In this document: positions 10,318 to 17,595 of the stretch, one piece after another | Position numbering within the stretch: the first letter of the stretch is position 1 | How the letters are laid out: every line of letters starts with the position of its first letter | From: Geodermatophilus obscurus | GTDB taxonomy: Bacteria; Actinomycetota; Actinomycetes; Mycobacteriales; Geodermatophilaceae | DNA length: 64,000 nucleotides | Direction of reading: 5' to 3' | Assembly: GCF_900115395.1 (NCBI RefSeq) | Contig: NZ_FOWE01000001.1 | Coordinates: 186,001-250,000 of the forward strand | Translations under genes and position numbers: made by a program | The notes under the pieces: generated by a model | Seen by the model: only the letters and a program-made list of their open reading frames with translations | Told to the model about the DNA's origin: nothing | Databases searched by the model: none

Positions 10318-10917
10318 TCACCGCCAGGCGAACACCGGCGCCTCGAGGTGGGCGACGCGGGTGTGCCGCCCCCGGCAGGCGACCTGGCAGAACTGGTACA
10401 CCACCGCCGCGGTGGGGGCGTGCAGCCAGCCGCCGAGCAGCGGCAGCCGGATGACCGGCGCGTCGGACTCGGGGATGGCCTCCAGCACCGGGTCCACGTC
10501 GAGGTCGGCCAGCGGTACGCGGTGGACGGCGGCGACCTCCGCCTCGGCGGGGGCCAGCTCCCCGGTCTCACCGGCCCAGACCACCACCGGGGTCATCACG
10601 TAGCCGGAGCGGGTCACGTAGTCGTCGAGCAGGCCCAGGACGTCGCCCGGGCCGCGGACCATCCCGACCTCCTCGGCCAGCTCGCGCAGCGCGGCCCCGA
10701 CCGGCGTCTCGCCGTCGTCGAGCCGCCCGCCGGGGAGCGCCCACTGCCCGGCGTGCGCGCGCAGGCGGGCGGCGCGGCGGGTGAGCAGCAGCGCCGGCTC
10801 CTCCGCCGGCCCGGTCACGCAGACGGCGACGGCGGCCTGGCGCAGCTCGGGCCGGCCGGCCGCGCGGCGGGGGAACTTCCCGAGCCGTGCGGCCGCCGTG
10901 CCCTCGTCGAGCGTCAG
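10318..10917 (-). CDS. NUDIX hydrolase (CoA pyrophosphatase-like)
   Basis: About 199 aa if it starts at the CTG at 10917. The Nudix box is GGRLDDGETPVGAALRELAE followed by EVG, i.e. G-x5-E-x7-RELxEEx with the final residue I/V/G. The preceding LLLTRRAARLRAHAGQWALPGG is typical of NudL-type CoA pyrophosphatases. The C-terminal GxxxPxVxW barrel part is intact. No ATG, GTG or TTG occurs near the expected N-terminus: the nearest in-frame GTG downstream would remove the first strand. The CTG sits in a CTGA overlap with the Spo0M-like stop. Confidence 0.82.
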   Translation of the reverse strand: MTLDEGTAAARLGKFPRRAAGRPELRQAAVAVCVTGPAEEPALLLTRRAARLRAHAGQWALPGGRLDDGETPVGAALRELAEEVGMVRGPGDVLGLLDDYVTRSGYVMTPVVVWAGETGELAPAEAEVAAVHRVPLADLDVDPVLEAIPESDAPVIRLPLLGGWLHAPTAAVVYQFCQVACRGRHTRVAHLEAPVFAWR

Positions 10918-11693
10918 AACCAGCCGCGCCGGCCGCCGAGCTGGCGGACGGCCGCGTCGAGCTGCGCGGCGACCGCCGACACGTCGGTGTCGGAGTGCGA
11001 GAGGTGCAGTCGGCCGCCGACGTCGCGGCCCTCGGTGAGCAGCCCGCCGCGCCGGTCGACCTCCAGCACGACCTCCACGCCGTGCGGGGAGGCCAGGAAG
11101 GTCACCTCGAGCTCGTTGACCCGCCCGCGCAGCGACGACGGCGGCGCGAACTCGACCTCCTGGTAGAAGGGCAGGTCGCTGCCGGTGAGGCGGCCCTTCT
11201 CGACGTCGGCGCCGCGGAACGTGAAGCCCAGGCCGCCCAGCGCCTGGATGACCGTGCGCTGCACCGGCAGCGGCTGGACGGTGATCGCGTCGAGGTCGCC
11301 GGGGTCGGTGCCGCCCGGGATGTCGACCCGGGTGCGCAGGCCGATCTTCACGCCGCGCAGCGACCAGCCGTCGAGCGTGGTGAAGGGGCACTGCCAGGGC
11401 ACCGGGAAGCTGAACGGGATCGCCGCCTTCGCGCCCGCCTCGATCCGCCCGGCGCCGGCGATGGGCGCGGTGCCGAAGGTGACGGTCTCCTTCCACTCGT
11501 GGTCGCCGCTCTCCACCTCGACGGTGGCCTGCAGCGAGACCCGGAGCTCGTTGATCTCCTGGGCCACCTGGCCGCCGGTGAGGTGCACGGTGCCGGTGAC
11601 GGTGCCGCCGGGGGTCGTCGTGGGGGTGTCGAGGACGGCGTCGACGGTCGCGTTGCCGGCGCCCAGCTTCGCCATCAGGTTGCGGAAGGCCAT
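10914..11693 (-). CDS. Spo0M-like sporulation-control family protein
   Basis: 259 aa. The start is the ATG of MAFRNLMAKLGAGNATVDAVLD, which is how Spo0M proteins begin. An upstream in-frame start would only add a Pro-rich stretch. The family has an arrestin-like beta-sandwich; the HLTGG, LPFYQEVEF and PHGVEVVLEVDRRGG segments fit. In Bacillus, Spo0M negatively affects sporulation; in non-endospore actinobacteria the role is open (cell envelope or stress). A GGAG ribosome site lies 9 nt before the ATG. Confidence 0.88.
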   Translation of the reverse strand: MAFRNLMAKLGAGNATVDAVLDTPTTTPGGTVTGTVHLTGGQVAQEINELRVSLQATVEVESGDHEWKETVTFGTAPIAGAGRIEAGAKAAIPFSFPVPWQCPFTTLDGWSLRGVKIGLRTRVDIPGGTDPGDLDAITVQPLPVQRTVIQALGGLGFTFRGADVEKGRLTGSDLPFYQEVEFAPPSSLRGRVNELEVTFLASPHGVEVVLEVDRRGGLLTEGRDVGGRLHLSHSDTDVSAVAAQLDAAVRQLGGRRGWF

Positions 11694-11772
11694 GGGGGAG
11701 TGCTCCGTTCGGTTCGGGGACGGCGGGCACTCTGACACCACGCCCGGCGGGTGGCGAGGGGTTCCCGCGCGC

Positions 11773-13545
11773 TCAGGCAGGCGGCAGCACGCGCACCGCG
11801 AGGAGGGCGACGTCGTCGGCGCGCTCGGGTGCCAGCCGCTCCAGCAGAGTGTCGCCGACCTCCCCGGCCGGCCGGCCGGTCAGGTCGGCCGCGGCGGCGA
11901 GCAGCCGGGCGAGGCCCGCGTCGAGGTCGGCGTCGCGGCGCTCGACGAGCCCGTCGGTGTACAGCAGCAGCGTGGTCCCCGGGAGGAGCGTCTCGGCGGC
12001 GTCGCGGCGGTGGGTGTCGGGCCGGACGCCCAGCAGCAGGTCGGGGCGGCGGTCGAGCAGCCGCGGGGGCCCCGCCGGGGGGATGAGCAGCGGCGGCGGG
12101 TGCCCGGCGCTGGACCAGGTGAGGGTCCGCGCTCCGGCGGGAGCGTCCGCCGGCGCCGGCCCCACGCAGGCGAGGACGGCGGTGGCCAGGGTCGCGGTCC
12201 CGAACCCGGCCATGGCCCGGTCGAGGAAGGCCAGCACCCGCGACGGCGGCCCGCCGACGGCGGAGGCGATGCCGCGCAGCACGTTGCGCACCTGGCCCAT
12301 GGCCGCGGCGGCCAGCCGGTCGTGTCCGGTGACGTCGCCGATGACGACGGTGGTCCCCTCGCCGGAGGGGAACGCGTCGTACCAGTCGCCGCCGACCTGC
12401 GCCTCCACCGCCGCCGGGCGGTAGCGGACGGCGAGGTCGAGCCCCGGCACGCGCGGCGGGTCGGTGAGCAGCGAGCGCTGCAGCGTCTCGGCCAGGCTGC
12501 GGGTCGCCGAGGCCAGCCGCCGCTCGTCCTCCAGCCGGGTGACCCGCTCCACGGCCTGCACGGTCTGCACGGCGAGCGCCTCCAGCAGCCGCACGTCGTG
12601 GTCCTCGAGAACCCGGGGCCCGGCCCACCCGACGGTCAGCGATCCGAGCAGTCGCCCGTCCGAGCGCAGCGGCAGGGCGGCCCAGGACCGCAGCCCCGGC
12701 GCCGGCGGTGGCTGCGCGCCGGCCTCGCCCACCAGGACCGCCCGCCCGCGGGCCGCGACCGCCGACGGGTGCTGACCGTCGGCGGACAGCCTGCGGCCGG
12801 GCCGGCCGGACGCGGTGAGCACGAGGTCCCCGCCGCGCGGCCCGGGCAGCGCGAGGGCGAGCAGGGACGCGTCCAGCGCGGCGCCGCCGTGGTCGGCCAG
12901 CAGGTCGACCAGGTGGGCGCGGCTCTCGGCGGCGGCGAGGGCGGAGACGATCGCGGCCAGGCCCGCGAGGGAGTGCGCGGTGCGTCGCTGGCGGGCCTCG
13001 AGCGCGCGCAGCTCGGCGACGGCGTCCTGCAGCTCGCGGGTGCGGGAGAGCAGGTCGGCCTCCACCTCGACCACCCGCCGCTGCCCCTGCTCCGCCTCGC
13101 CCCGCAGCCGCACGTAGTCGGTGATGTCGTCGGACCGGTGCAGCAGGAACGCCACGCCGCCGGTGCCGTCGAGCACCGGGACGTTCACCGGGCTCCAGTA
13201 GCGGACGTCCCAGGTCCCGTCGGGCAGCGGGATGTCGTACCGCTGGACCGCCATCGTGACCGGCCGCCGTGTCACCAGCGTCTCCTCCAGCGACGCCCGC
13301 AGGTTCACCAGGCCGTCGGCGGCGGGGTCGTCCGGACGCATCGGGAAGGCGTCGAAGAGGTGCCGGCCGACGGTGTCCTCCAGCGTCGTCGCGGTGGCCT
13401 CCAGCCGGGCCCGGTTCGCGTGCACGATCACCAGGTCGGGGGTCAGCAGCAGCAACGGCGCCGGCGCGACGTCGAAGACGCGCGCCCAGTCCGGCACCGG
13501 CAGGTCCACGATCTCCTCCGTGCCCACGCACGCGGCGGCGGACAC
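11773..13545 (-). CDS. PAS-GAF-PP2C serine phosphatase (RsbU/SpoIIE type)
   Basis: 590 aa. Residues 20-150 are a PAS fold (LLLLTPDLVIVHANRA, then GRHLFDAFPM). A short coiled linker follows, then a GAF domain at about 190-345. The PP2C SpoIIE phosphatase at 360-588 shows EAQVGGDWYDAF, VVIGDVTGHD, SAGHPPPLL, LLLYTDGLVERRD and ERADDVALLAVR. All metal-binding Asp residues are present. Such enzymes dephosphorylate anti-sigma-antagonist proteins in partner-switching stress pathways. No STAS or HATPase partner gene is in the window. The GTG at 13545 lies inside a palindrome shared with the icmF promoter. Confidence 0.92.
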   Translation of the reverse strand: MSAAACVGTEEIVDLPVPDWARVFDVAPAPLLLLTPDLVIVHANRARLEATATTLEDTVGRHLFDAFPMRPDDPAADGLVNLRASLEETLVTRRPVTMAVQRYDIPLPDGTWDVRYWSPVNVPVLDGTGGVAFLLHRSDDITDYVRLRGEAEQGQRRVVEVEADLLSRTRELQDAVAELRALEARQRRTAHSLAGLAAIVSALAAAESRAHLVDLLADHGGAALDASLLALALPGPRGGDLVLTASGRPGRRLSADGQHPSAVAARGRAVLVGEAGAQPPPAPGLRSWAALPLRSDGRLLGSLTVGWAGPRVLEDHDVRLLEALAVQTVQAVERVTRLEDERRLASATRSLAETLQRSLLTDPPRVPGLDLAVRYRPAAVEAQVGGDWYDAFPSGEGTTVVIGDVTGHDRLAAAAMGQVRNVLRGIASAVGGPPSRVLAFLDRAMAGFGTATLATAVLACVGPAPADAPAGARTLTWSSAGHPPPLLIPPAGPPRLLDRRPDLLLGVRPDTHRRDAAETLLPGTTLLLYTDGLVERRDADLDAGLARLLAAAADLTGRPAGEVGDTLLERLAPERADDVALLAVRVLPPA

Positions 13546-13573
13546 TACCCATGGGTAGTTGGACGTCCTACTA
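13544..13573. promoter_or_regulatory. Nested palindromes between the PP2C gene and icmF, operator candidate
   Basis: ACTACCCATGGGTAGT (13544-13559) is a perfect 16-bp palindrome. It runs into TAGTTGGACGTCCTACTA (13556-13573), an 18-bp palindrome with one mismatched pair. Both fill the 50-bp gap between the two divergent starts; the first covers the GTG of the phosphatase. Binding there could block both promoters. The regulator is unknown and not encoded nearby. Confidence 0.6.
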
Positions 13574-13595
13574 AATCGCGCCTACCGTCTCGGGC

Positions 13596-16500
13596 ATGGC
13601 GTCCGCGGAGCTGCACGTACCCGTCCACCCCGTCCGGTTCGTCACCGCGGCGAGCCTCTTCGACGGCCACGACGCGGCGATCAACGTCATGCGGCGGCTG
13701 CTGCAGAGCCAGGGTGCGGAGGTCGTGCACCTGGGCCACGACCGGTCGGTCGACGCCGTCGTCCGGGCGGCGCTGGAGGAGGACGTGCAGGGCGTCGCGA
13801 TCTCCAGCTACCAGGGCGGGCACGTCGAGTACTTCGGCTACCTCGTCGACCGGCTGCGCGAGGCCGGGGCGGGGCACGTGCAGGTCTTCGGCGGCGGGGG
13901 CGGCGTGATCGTCCCGGAGGAGATCGCCGCGCTGCGGGAGCGGGGCGTGCGGATCTTCAGCCCCGAGGACGGCGCCCGGCTCGGCCTGCCGGGGATGATC
14001 AACGAGCTGATCCGCTCCTGCGACGTCGACCTGACGCAGGAGCGCCCCGATGTCGACGCGCTGTTCACCGGCGACCCCCGGGCGCTGGCCCGCGCGATCA
14101 CCGTGCTCGAGACCGGGGCCGACGACGAGCTCGCCGCCCGCGTCCGGGAGGTCGCCGCCGGGCGCACCGTGCCGGTCCTGGGCATCACCGGCACCGGCGG
14201 CTCGGGCAAGTCCTCGCTCACCGACGAGCTGCTGCGCCGGCTGCGCCGCGACCAGGAGGACAAGCTGCGGGTCGCCGTCGTCGCGATCGACCCGACCCGC
14301 CGCCGCGGCGGGGGAGCGCTGCTCGGCGACCGCATCCGGATGAACGCGCTCGAGTCCGGGGACGGCTCGCACACCTTCTTCCGCTCGATGGCCACCCGCA
14401 CCGCCGGCGCCCAGGTGCCCGGGCACCTCGACGACGTCATCGCCGCGGTGAAGGCCGCCGGCTTCGACCTCGTCGTCGTGGAGACGCCGGGCATCGGCCA
14501 GGGCGACGCGGCGATCGTGCCGTTCAGCGACGTCTCGCTCTACGTCATGACGCCGGAGTTCGGCGCGGCCAGCCAGCTCGAGAAGATCGACATGCTCGAC
14601 CTCGCCGACGTCGTCGCCATCAACAAGTTCGAGCGCCGCGGCGCCGAGGACGCGCGCCGCGACGTCGCCCGGCAGATGGTCCGCAACCGCGAGGCGTTCG
14701 GGCAGCCGTGGGAGCGGATGCCGGTGTTCGGCACCAGCGCCGCCCGCTTCGACGACGACGGCGTCACCGCGCTCTACCAGGAGCTGCTCGGCCTGCTGGT
14801 CGAGAAGGGCCTGCCCGCGGGCGCCGGCGTGCTGCCGCGGGTCGACGTGCGGGCCTCGACCGGGTTGAGCAGCGTCGTGCCGTCGTCGCGGGCGCGGTAT
14901 CTGGCGGAGGTGGCCGAGGCGGTACGCGGGCACCACCGGGTCACCGAGGAGCAGGCCGCCGTCGCCCGGCGGCGCGAGCACCTGACCACCGCCGCCGACG
15001 TCCTGGAGGGCGCGGCCGCCGAGGCGGCCCGCGAGGCGGCCGAGGCCGCCGACCGGGAGCTGCTGCCCGAGGTGCGCACACTGCTGGCGGAGTGGCCGGC
15101 GCGGGTGGAGGCCTACTCCGGCGACGAGTACGTCTACACGGTGCGCGGCAAGGAGATCCGCACGCCGCTGAAGCGCCAGACGCTCAGCGGGACCGAGGTG
15201 CCGCGGGTGGCGCTGCCGCGCACCACCGACTCAGCCGACCTGCTGCGCTTCCTGCGGCGCGAGAACCTGCCCGGCGCGTTCCCGTACACCGCCGGCGTCT
15301 TCCCGTTCAAGCGGTCCGGTGAGGCCCCGGCGCGGATGTTCGCCGGCGAGGGCGACGCGTTCCGCACCAACCGGCGGTTCCGGGTGCTGTCGGCCGGCAA
15401 CGAGGCCACCCGGCTGTCCACGGCGTTCGACTCGGTCACCCTCTACGGCCGCGACCCCGACCCGCGACCCGACGTCTACGGCAAGGTCGGCACGTCGGGC
15501 GTCTCGATCGCCACGCTCGACGACATGCGGGTGCTCTACGACGGGTTCGACCTGTGCGCGCCCACGACGTCGGTGTCGATGACGATCAACGGCCCGGCGC
15601 CGGCGGTGCTCGCGATGTTCATGAACACCGCGATCGAGCAGCGGCTGGACCGGTTCCGCGAGGAGGAGGGCCGTGAGCCCGACGCCGCCGAGGCCGAGGA
15701 GATCCGCGTCTGGGTGCTGTCGACCGTCCGCGGCACGGTGCAGGCCGACATCCTCAAAGAGGACCAGGGCCAGAACACCTGCATCTTCTCGACCGAGTTC
15801 GCGCTGCGCTGCATGGCCGACATCCAGCAGTGGTTCATCGACCACCGGGTGCGCAACTTCTACTCGGTGTCGATCTCCGGGTACCACATCGCCGAGGCCG
15901 GGGCGAACCCCATCAGCCAGCTCGCCTTCACGCTGGCCAACGGGTTCACCTACGTCGAGGCCTACCTGGCGCGCGGCATGGCCATCGACGACTTCGCGCC
16001 CAACCTGAGCTTCTTCTTCAGCAACGGCATGGACGCCGAGTACACGGTGATCGGCCGGGTGGCCCGGCGGATCTGGGCGGTGGCGATGCGCGACCGCTAC
16101 GGCGCCGACGCCCGCTCCCAGCAGCTGAAGTACCACGTGCAGACGTCGGGGCGGTCACTGCACGCGCAGGAGATGGACTTCAACGACATCCGCACCACGC
16201 TCCAGGCGCTGTGCGCGATCTACGACAACGCCAACTCGCTGCACACGAACGCCTACGACGAGGCGGTGACGACGCCGTCGGAGCACTCGGTCCGCCGGGC
16301 ACTCGCGATCCAGATGATCATCGACCGCGAGTGGGGGCTGGCCGGCAACGAGAACCCGCTGCAGGGCTCGGCGGTCGTCGACGAGCTCACCGACCTGGTG
16401 GAGGAGGCGGTGCTGGCGGAGTTCGACCGGATCGCCGAGCGCGGCGGCGTGCTGGGCGCGATGGAGACCGGCTACCAGCGCGGGAAGATCCAGGACGAGT

Positions 16501-16832
16501 CGATGCTCTACGAGCACCGCAAGCACGACGGGTCGCTGCCGATCGTCGGCGTCAACACCTTCCTCGACCCGCGCTCGGGCTCCGAACCGCCGAAGAAGGT
16601 CGAGCTGGCGCGGGCCACCGAGGAGGAGAAGCAGTCGCAGCTGCGCCGGCTGGCCGACTTCCAGGCCCGGCACGCCGACGAGGCGCCGGCCGCGCTGGCC
16701 GCACTGCAGGAGGCGGCGACGTCGGGCGGCAACGTGTTCGCCGCGCTGATGGACGCCGTCCGGGTGTGCTCGCTGGGCCAGATCTCCGACGCCTTCTTCG
16801 AGGTGGGCGGCCAGTACCGCAGGAATGTCTGA
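13596..16832 (+). CDS. icmF: Fused isobutyryl-CoA mutase with G-protein chaperone (IcmF)
   Basis: 1078 aa, close to the family's usual ~1090. The N-terminal B12-binding domain carries the cobalt-ligand His in DGHDAAIN (residues 23-30). The MeaI-type G-protein domain follows, with Walker A GITGTGGSGKSS at 196-207. The C-terminal mutase TIM barrel has TSGVSIATLDDM near 632 and CAPTTSVSMTINGPA after it. The enzyme interconverts isobutyryl-CoA and n-butyryl-CoA (some also act on isovaleryl/pivalyl-CoA) using adenosylcobalamin, and the GTPase domain guards cofactor loading. It is cytosolic. It overlaps the BtuF-like gene by 8 bp and is divergent from the PP2C gene. Confidence 0.96.
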   Translation: MASAELHVPVHPVRFVTAASLFDGHDAAINVMRRLLQSQGAEVVHLGHDRSVDAVVRAALEEDVQGVAISSYQGGHVEYFGYLVDRLREAGAGHVQVFGGGGGVIVPEEIAALRERGVRIFSPEDGARLGLPGMINELIRSCDVDLTQERPDVDALFTGDPRALARAITVLETGADDELAARVREVAAGRTVPVLGITGTGGSGKSSLTDELLRRLRRDQEDKLRVAVVAIDPTRRRGGGALLGDRIRMNALESGDGSHTFFRSMATRTAGAQVPGHLDDVIAAVKAAGFDLVVVETPGIGQGDAAIVPFSDVSLYVMTPEFGAASQLEKIDMLDLADVVAINKFERRGAEDARRDVARQMVRNREAFGQPWERMPVFGTSAARFDDDGVTALYQELLGLLVEKGLPAGAGVLPRVDVRASTGLSSVVPSSRARYLAEVAEAVRGHHRVTEEQAAVARRREHLTTAADVLEGAAAEAAREAAEAADRELLPEVRTLLAEWPARVEAYSGDEYVYTVRGKEIRTPLKRQTLSGTEVPRVALPRTTDSADLLRFLRRENLPGAFPYTAGVFPFKRSGEAPARMFAGEGDAFRTNRRFRVLSAGNEATRLSTAFDSVTLYGRDPDPRPDVYGKVGTSGVSIATLDDMRVLYDGFDLCAPTTSVSMTINGPAPAVLAMFMNTAIEQRLDRFREEEGREPDAAEAEEIRVWVLSTVRGTVQADILKEDQGQNTCIFSTEFALRCMADIQQWFIDHRVRNFYSVSISGYHIAEAGANPISQLAFTLANGFTYVEAYLARGMAIDDFAPNLSFFFSNGMDAEYTVIGRVARRIWAVAMRDRYGADARSQQLKYHVQTSGRSLHAQEMDFNDIRTTLQALCAIYDNANSLHTNAYDEAVTTPSEHSVRRALAIQMIIDREWGLAGNENPLQGSAVVDELTDLVEEAVLAEFDRIAERGGVLGAMETGYQRGKIQDESMLYEHRKHDGSLPIVGVNTFLDPRSGSEPPKKVELARATEEEKQSQLRRLADFQARHADEAPAALAALQEAATSGGNVFAALMDAVRVCSLGQISDAFFEVGGQYRRNV

Positions 16833-17595
16833 GGACGACCTGGGCGCGCCGGTCCCGCTGACGGGGCCGGCGCGACGGGTGGTCTCGCTGGTGCCCTCGC
16901 TGACCGAGGCGCTGGCGGTCACCGTGCCCGACCGGCTGGTGGGCGCCACGGACTGGTGCACACACCCGGCCGGCCTCGACATCGAGCGCGTGCGGGGGAC
17001 GAAGAACCCCGACCGGGCGGCGATCGCGGCGCTGGAGCCCGACCTCGTCGTCTGCAACCGGGAGGAGAACCGGCGCCTCGACGTCGACCGGCTGCGCGCG
17101 GCGGGCATCGCGGTGTGGGTGACGGTGATCGAGTCGGTCGACGAGGCGCTGGCCTCGATGCGGCGGCTCTTCGCCGAGGCGCTGCAGGTGCCCGAGCCCG
17201 GGTGGCTGACCGCCGCTGCCGCGGAGTGGTCGCGCCCGGCGCCGTCCCCGCCGCTGGGCTGCGCGGTCCCCGTGTGGCGGGACCCGTGGATGGTCGTCGG
17301 TCCGCGCACCTTCACCGGCGACGTGCTCGCTCGCCTCGGGCTGGTCAACGTCTTCGGCTGCGGCCTCGCCGCGGGGGAGGACCGCTACCCGCACGTGTCG
17401 GTCGACGACGTCCTGGGCGCGCGGCCCGACGTCGTCCTGCTGCCCGACGAGCCCTACCTGTTTACCCCCGACGACGGCCCGGAGGCGTTCCCCGGCGTGC
17501 GGTCGGTGCTGGTGTCCGGGCGGGCGCTGACCTGGTACGGCCCGTCACTGGCCACCGCCCGCGGGGAGCTGCTGGCCGCCCTCGGCGACCGCTGA
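16825..17595 (+). CDS. BtuF-like helical-backbone metal/cobalamin receptor without signal peptide
   Basis: 256 aa. The fold is that of periplasmic B12/iron-complex binding proteins (RVVSLVPSLTEALA, DLVVCNREENRRLDVDRL, TFTGDVLARLGLVNVFG). The N-terminus (MSEDDLGAPVPLTGPARR) is acidic, with no hydrophobic signal and no lipobox, so it should be cytosolic. The ATG lies 8 bp inside icmF, so the two are translated together. Next to a cobalamin-dependent mutase this suggests a soluble corrinoid binder or sensor, but that role is inference. No BtuCD genes are adjacent. Confidence 0.85.
   Translation: MSEDDLGAPVPLTGPARRVVSLVPSLTEALAVTVPDRLVGATDWCTHPAGLDIERVRGTKNPDRAAIAALEPDLVVCNREENRRLDVDRLRAAGIAVWVTVIESVDEALASMRRLFAEALQVPEPGWLTAAAAEWSRPAPSPPLGCAVPVWRDPWMVVGPRTFTGDVLARLGLVNVFGCGLAAGEDRYPHVSVDDVLGARPDVVLLPDEPYLFTPDDGPEAFPGVRSVLVSGRALTWYGPSLATARGELLAALGDR

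Follow-up and report, generated by a model that had tools for sequence, protein, structure and literature searches.

The 18-bp element upstream of icmF is a conserved sequence that we infer to be an operator. Our preferred reading, to which we give a probability of about 85%, is that it is the site of a MarR repressor of the Sco5413 type that would control icmF and be released by a ligand; binding, repression, the ligand, and the position of the promoter are all proposed here from sequence comparison. The proposed regulon would be new, with a regulator of a known kind. It would assign a target and an operator, along with a likely role in physiology, to a MarR family present in 200 of 296 sampled class genomes. 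The element lies within a 64-kb stretch of DNA (the window; GC content of about 76%), between a gene for a PAS-GAF-SpoIIE phosphatase and icmF. The two genes are a divergent pair, with SpoIIE on the minus strand and IcmF on the plus strand, as had been predicted. The locus comprises the following features:

11773 to 13509, minus strand: gene for the PAS-GAF-SpoIIE phosphatase (Pfam SpoIIE, 2.3e-41; PAS_4; GAF), with its probable start revised from 13545 to GTG 13509 by comparison of starts
13513 to 13519, minus strand: likely Shine-Dalgarno sequence GGAGGAG of the phosphatase gene, from the window sequence; relatives have a purine-rich stretch ahead of the corresponding start
13544 to 13559, no strand: perfect 16-bp palindrome ACTACCCATGGGTAGT, unique in the genome and poorly conserved; its right end forms the left edge of the putative operator
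13556 to 13573, no strand: putative operator TAGTTGGACGTCCTACTA, matching the consensus TASTWGGACGTCCWASTA at 18/18 positions and conserved before icmF in Actinobacteria; proposed site of a Sco5413-type MarR protein
13559 to 13564, plus strand: possible -35 hexamer TTGGAC of an icmF promoter, inside the putative operator, picked by eye 18 nt before a -10-like hexamer
13583 to 13588, plus strand: possible -10 hexamer TACCGT (TANNNT type) of a leaderless icmF transcript, from conservation
13596 to 16832, plus strand: icmF, encoding a fused isobutyryl-CoA mutase/GTPase of 1078 aa, whose score of 1908.8 bits with NCBIfam NF045497 (cut-off, 1500) identifies it as an IcmF equivalog

A scan of the window against Rfam found no RNA family.

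Conservation of the 18-bp element

The original prediction described a perfect 16-bp palindrome and an 18-bp near-palindrome that overlap by 4 bp and fill the whole of a 50-bp gap between the divergent starts. Both palindromes are present, the second being palindromic in 8 of 9 pairs, and they share bases 13556 to 13559; together they cover 30 bp rather than the whole gap. Palindromicity alone is little evidence of function, because such palindromes are common in DNA with a GC content of 76%. The window contains 13 perfect 16-mer palindromes, against a Markov-1 expectation of 7.7 +/- 2.4. For 18-mers allowing up to one mismatched pair, the count is 63 and the expectation 43 +/- 7; both counts are at chance level. 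We therefore tested conservation instead, and only the 18-bp element is conserved above chance.

Poor conservation in relatives that share the SpoIIE-icmF gene order had been named in advance as grounds for abandoning the idea. The 18-bp palindrome is kept in these relatives, matching at 18/18 positions in five of the seven and at 17/18 in the other two. Of 45 actinobacterial icmF loci drawn from a named genome collection, 41 have TASTWGGACGTCCWASTA at 15/18 or better within 200 bp upstream of icmF; four loci (L038, L051, L072, and L093) lacked a site at this threshold. The reversed motif was found upstream of icmF in 0/45 loci and shuffled motifs in approximately none, and the motif itself was found in 0/34 loci from other phyla. 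In genomes of the family (L002 to L031), the GGACGTCC element around icmF is kept with or without the phosphatase gene, its core differing by one or two bases in L030 and L031. Across the phylum, the operator lies before icmF or icmA and the neighboring genes differ.

Two of the four exceptional loci, L038 and L051, have a variant, TACTTTAACTTC(A/C)AAATA, upstream of icmF and beside a MarR gene that is transcribed divergently and falls on a long branch. The recognition-helix region of these two MarR proteins reads HPASVTN and not HPTSVTN. This residue change does not explain the variant site, since L034 and L036 have HPASVTN together with a GGACGTCC site.

The start of the phosphatase gene bears on where the operator lies. 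Its first in-frame GTG, at 13545, touches the 16-bp palindrome, and the original prediction accordingly placed a start codon inside the operator. ATG 13552 is in a different frame, and comparison with relatives favors GTG 13509, which follows the GGAGGAG stretch and is probably the real start. In the four relatives compared (L006, L007, L009, and L011; L010 was left out), the earliest usable start corresponds to this one and lies 12 to 13 codons before a conserved FDVAP; the corresponding distance in the window is 11 codons. A start codon within the operator is thus unlikely, and with the start at 13509 the intergenic gap becomes 86 bp (13510 to 13595), with the operator inside it. On the icmF side, TAC(C/G)GT occurs 6 to 7 nt before the icmF ATG in 10/10 aligned close relatives, counting the window, which suggests a leaderless icmF transcript with the operator over its -35 region. 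A scan of positions 13400 to 13700 for the sigma-70 consensus (spacing of 16 to 18 nt, 9/12 matches) returned no promoter, so the proposed promoter position comes from inspection by eye and from conservation.

These observations bear on three alternatives to, or extensions of, control of icmF alone. We give almost no credence to the idea that both palindromes arose by chance in GC-rich DNA. The near-expected counts in the window speak for it, and it is probably true of the 16-bp palindrome, but the phylum-wide conservation and target specificity of the 18-bp element refute it there. It is also unlikely that the overlapping palindromes form one composite operator through which a single regulator serves both the phosphatase gene and icmF. 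The palindromes do overlap, the divergent genes are close together, and three of the seven same-order relatives (L004, L007, and L011) retain ACTACCCATGGGTAGT in a variant form that matches at 13/16 or better. However, no such match was found in the other four (L005, L006, L009, and L010), and a genome-wide search found ACTACCCATGGGTAGT to be unique at up to 2 mismatches, which led us to reject it as an operator; as a palindrome it is probably incidental. The 18-bp operator, moreover, persists in two genomes (G011 and G010; L003 and L008) in which the phosphatase gene is absent and a gene that resembles Spo0M by eye faces icmF. A third idea, which would add to control of icmF rather than replace it, is that repression by the MarR protein extends to the phosphatase gene in a small clade, through position and without dedicated coupling, since only 86 bp separate the two genes. 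We consider it possible but less likely than not: the operator's edge and the revised phosphatase start are 46 bp apart, and 8 of the 10 closest genomes, the window's own among them, share the arrangement, but we recognized no conserved minus-strand promoter, and the linkage is local and missing in two relatives. Of the single regulator that had been predicted to couple the phosphatase to B12-dependent metabolism, the part that stands is an operator at icmF with one regulator that can be named. The coupling itself is weak, as other genes neighbor icmF across the phylum, and the phosphatase gene is a local neighbor, perhaps affected by the operator and perhaps not. In the window, the phosphatase gene is itself adjoined by a Spo0M gene (10914 to 11741, minus strand).

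A probable MarR-type regulator

The genes that accompany the operator point to the regulator. In two Nocardioides loci (L045 and L064), further copies of the operator precede a MarR-family gene that lies before icmF; the L045 protein, to which this score applies rather than to that of the window's genome, scores 46.4 bits in Pfam MarR against a cut-off of 24.6. Homologues of this gene were found near icmF in 18 of 111 loci, upstream, divergent, or downstream, and a MarR gene adjoins icmF or icmA in many genomes. A divergent operator is common to marR and icmF in L230. In those relatives that lack icmF, as in the Streptomyces-like family f18, the MarR gene precedes an icmA-type mutase gene, with the operator between them. 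This linkage argues against the TetR or GntR regulator originally predicted, and we rejected that class.

The window's genome (G000) encodes one MarR homologue at an E value of 1e-15 or lower (G000:C21:138454-139017). The gene is unlinked to icmF, with no operator site at its own locus and no icmA beside it. Compared with solved structures, the protein matched MarR structures, the best being PDB 4b8x (E value of 3e-51), which we take to be Sco5413 of Streptomyces coelicolor. Its assignment to the Sco5413 orthologue group follows from this best match, its single copy, the conserved recognition helix HPTSVTN, and the icmA neighborhood, the last in relatives only. For a tree of the family, homologues with fewer than approximately 125 aligned residues were dropped, and the remaining 142 reduced to 118 distinct sequences. 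Counts by the tree's “icmA” label are approximate, as the label was set automatically (for any locus with a mutase domain but no match to the IcmF N terminus) and is wrong for L114 and L117, both of which are beside icmF. Two MarR subgroups share the same operator, and for this reason we do not claim exact one-to-one orthology everywhere.

Site and regulator also occur together across genomes. In a sample of 296 class genomes, with the site defined at no more than 1 mismatch and the MarR protein at an E value of 1e-20 or lower, the site was present in 132 genomes and the MarR protein in 200. The 200 include every one of the 132, and the site was found in 0/96 genomes without the MarR protein; at 1 mismatch, no site was found in 68 of the 200 genomes with the MarR protein. 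In the phylum sample, the MarR protein was present in 23/23 genomes with the site and in 48/296 overall. The reversed control motif was found in 5/296 class genomes and 9/296 phylum genomes. Fisher tests gave 4e-33 (class) and 3e-21 (phylum), values that are descriptive and overstate independence because the sampled genomes are related. The MarR protein is present in 44 of the 45 actinobacterial genomes with icmF. The exception, Serinicoccus (L093), has icmF but neither the MarR gene nor the operator, a natural joint absence; its locus and one other lack both the site and its variant upstream of icmF. At L072, the MarR protein is present and no site was found upstream of icmF. Because all 132 site genomes encode the MarR protein and none of the 96 genomes lacking it carries the site, the regulator of the 18-bp site is, as judged from genome comparison, almost certainly a Sco5413-type MarR protein. 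It is improbable that the site belongs to some other unlinked regulator, of the TetR, GntR, or another family, and that the MarR protein co-occurs because both act in the same pathway. The MarR gene is indeed unlinked in the window's genome, and palindromes of such a size also suit TetR and GntR proteins, but the adjacency to icmF and icmA elsewhere, the apparently autogenous sites in L045, L064, and L230, the co-occurrence, and the joint absence in Serinicoccus all stand against it.

Genes behind the site

Genes for icmA/icmF, mmsA, and acyl-CoA dehydrogenase encode steps of valine and isobutyryl-CoA breakdown. A genome search with the motif alone recovered this set: in 79/79 fetched best-site loci, the start of a target gene lay within 260 bp of the site. 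The targets were an icmA-type mutase (40), icmF (27, one of which is the site common to a divergent marR in L230), an acyl-CoA dehydrogenase (7), and mmsA (5), counts that cover best-site loci only, second sites in the same genomes being mostly unclassified. In the window's genome, the icmF site is the one clear target and the sole site with fewer than 3 mismatches. The best reading of these comparisons is a regulon for valine and isobutyryl-CoA catabolism.

The names of the targets differ in their basis. The icmA-type mutases score above the cut-off of TIGR00641 (acid_CoA_mut_N; 588 and 598 bits), with no IcmA-specific model listed, and the name icmA rests on neighborhood and on SCO5415, which we presume to be icmA. 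MmsA was identified by model in L178 only (TIGR01722, methylmalonate-semialdehyde dehydrogenase, 637 bits versus 448.5). In Nocardia L048, a site 1575 bp upstream of icmF precedes an mmsA-like gene named by its likeness to that of L178. No specific model names the acyl-CoA dehydrogenase targets. In family f30 (L190, L192, and L194), the site precedes an acyl-CoA dehydrogenase gene beside birA-like and pccB-like genes, suggesting a regulon that reaches towards propionyl-CoA.

Proposed mechanism and known systems

Under the preferred reading of icmF control, a dimer of the unlinked MarR protein would occupy positions of about -40 to -23 relative to the leaderless icmF transcript, masking the -35 region and obstructing RNA polymerase. 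Accumulation of valine- or isobutyrate-derived acyl-CoA would supply a ligand, perhaps an acyl-CoA, that releases the MarR protein, and IcmF would then be made. We also lean, with distinctly less assurance, towards a broader reading in which the orphan Sco5413 MarR family is a phylum-wide master repressor of valine and isobutyryl-CoA catabolism that reads TASTWGGACGTCCWASTA, followed the mutase function through the exchange of IcmA and IcmF, and senses branched short-chain acyl-CoA. Interconversion of isobutyryl-CoA and butyryl-CoA feeds polyketide precursors in Streptomyces, and the regulator would for that reason be a direct handle on precursor supply.

Several known systems are comparable. 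The LiuR and LiuQ regulons of Proteobacteria govern branched-chain amino acid breakdown through regulators of the MerR and TetR families. They resemble the proposed regulon in tying a repressor to branched-chain acyl-CoA catabolism but differ in regulator family and operator, and the actinobacterial motif is missing from all 34 nonactinobacterial icmF loci; several proteobacterial loci have GACGTTTACGTAAACGT-like repeats upstream of icmF, which we take to be LiuR sites. CouR and BadR are acyl-CoA-responsive MarR repressors, and FabT responds to acyl-ACP. They share the MarR fold and a thioester or acyl ligand, the ligand here being a proposal, but are only distant sequence matches to the MarR protein described here; among PDB structures, CouR matched the icmF-linked MarR protein weakly (E value of 7e-4).

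The closest likeness is to Sco5413 itself, in structure and in the operator that separates its f18 homologues from icmA; the difference is that no operator or regulon for it was found in the literature searched. This Streptomyces member has a crystal structure and no assigned function that we found, and the title of its structure paper, as given in the reference list of PMC3737563, calls it “of unknown function.” In the portions of the literature available, SCO5413 appears in citations, an NdgR target table, a carbon-catabolite table, and a MarR list, none of which gives a regulon. The NdgR chromatin immunoprecipitation sequencing (ChIP-seq) target list excerpted from PMC4340878 includes SCO5413 and valine biosynthesis genes, a hint of the same metabolic context. 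Judged by title, no paper containing TGGACGTCCA was on this subject, and a search for isobutyryl-CoA mutase with TetR, operator, and Actinobacteria found nothing. A search for isobutyryl-CoA mutase with MarR returned PMC10731712, unrelated in its available part, and PMC6767563 as the other match. Regulation of icmF or icmA was absent from the literature searched, including the available part of PMC7923171, and no earlier report of an operator-MarR-icm regulon was found; the search lay largely outside subscription papers.

A further gene (16825 to 17595, plus strand) overlaps the icmF stop by 8 bp in the window and encodes a TroA-like helical backbone metal receptor with weak similarity to BtuF. 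L064 has a similar-looking gene after icmF, and in L128 one separates icmF from the MarR gene. This recurrence suggests a cobalamin-related partner of icmF.
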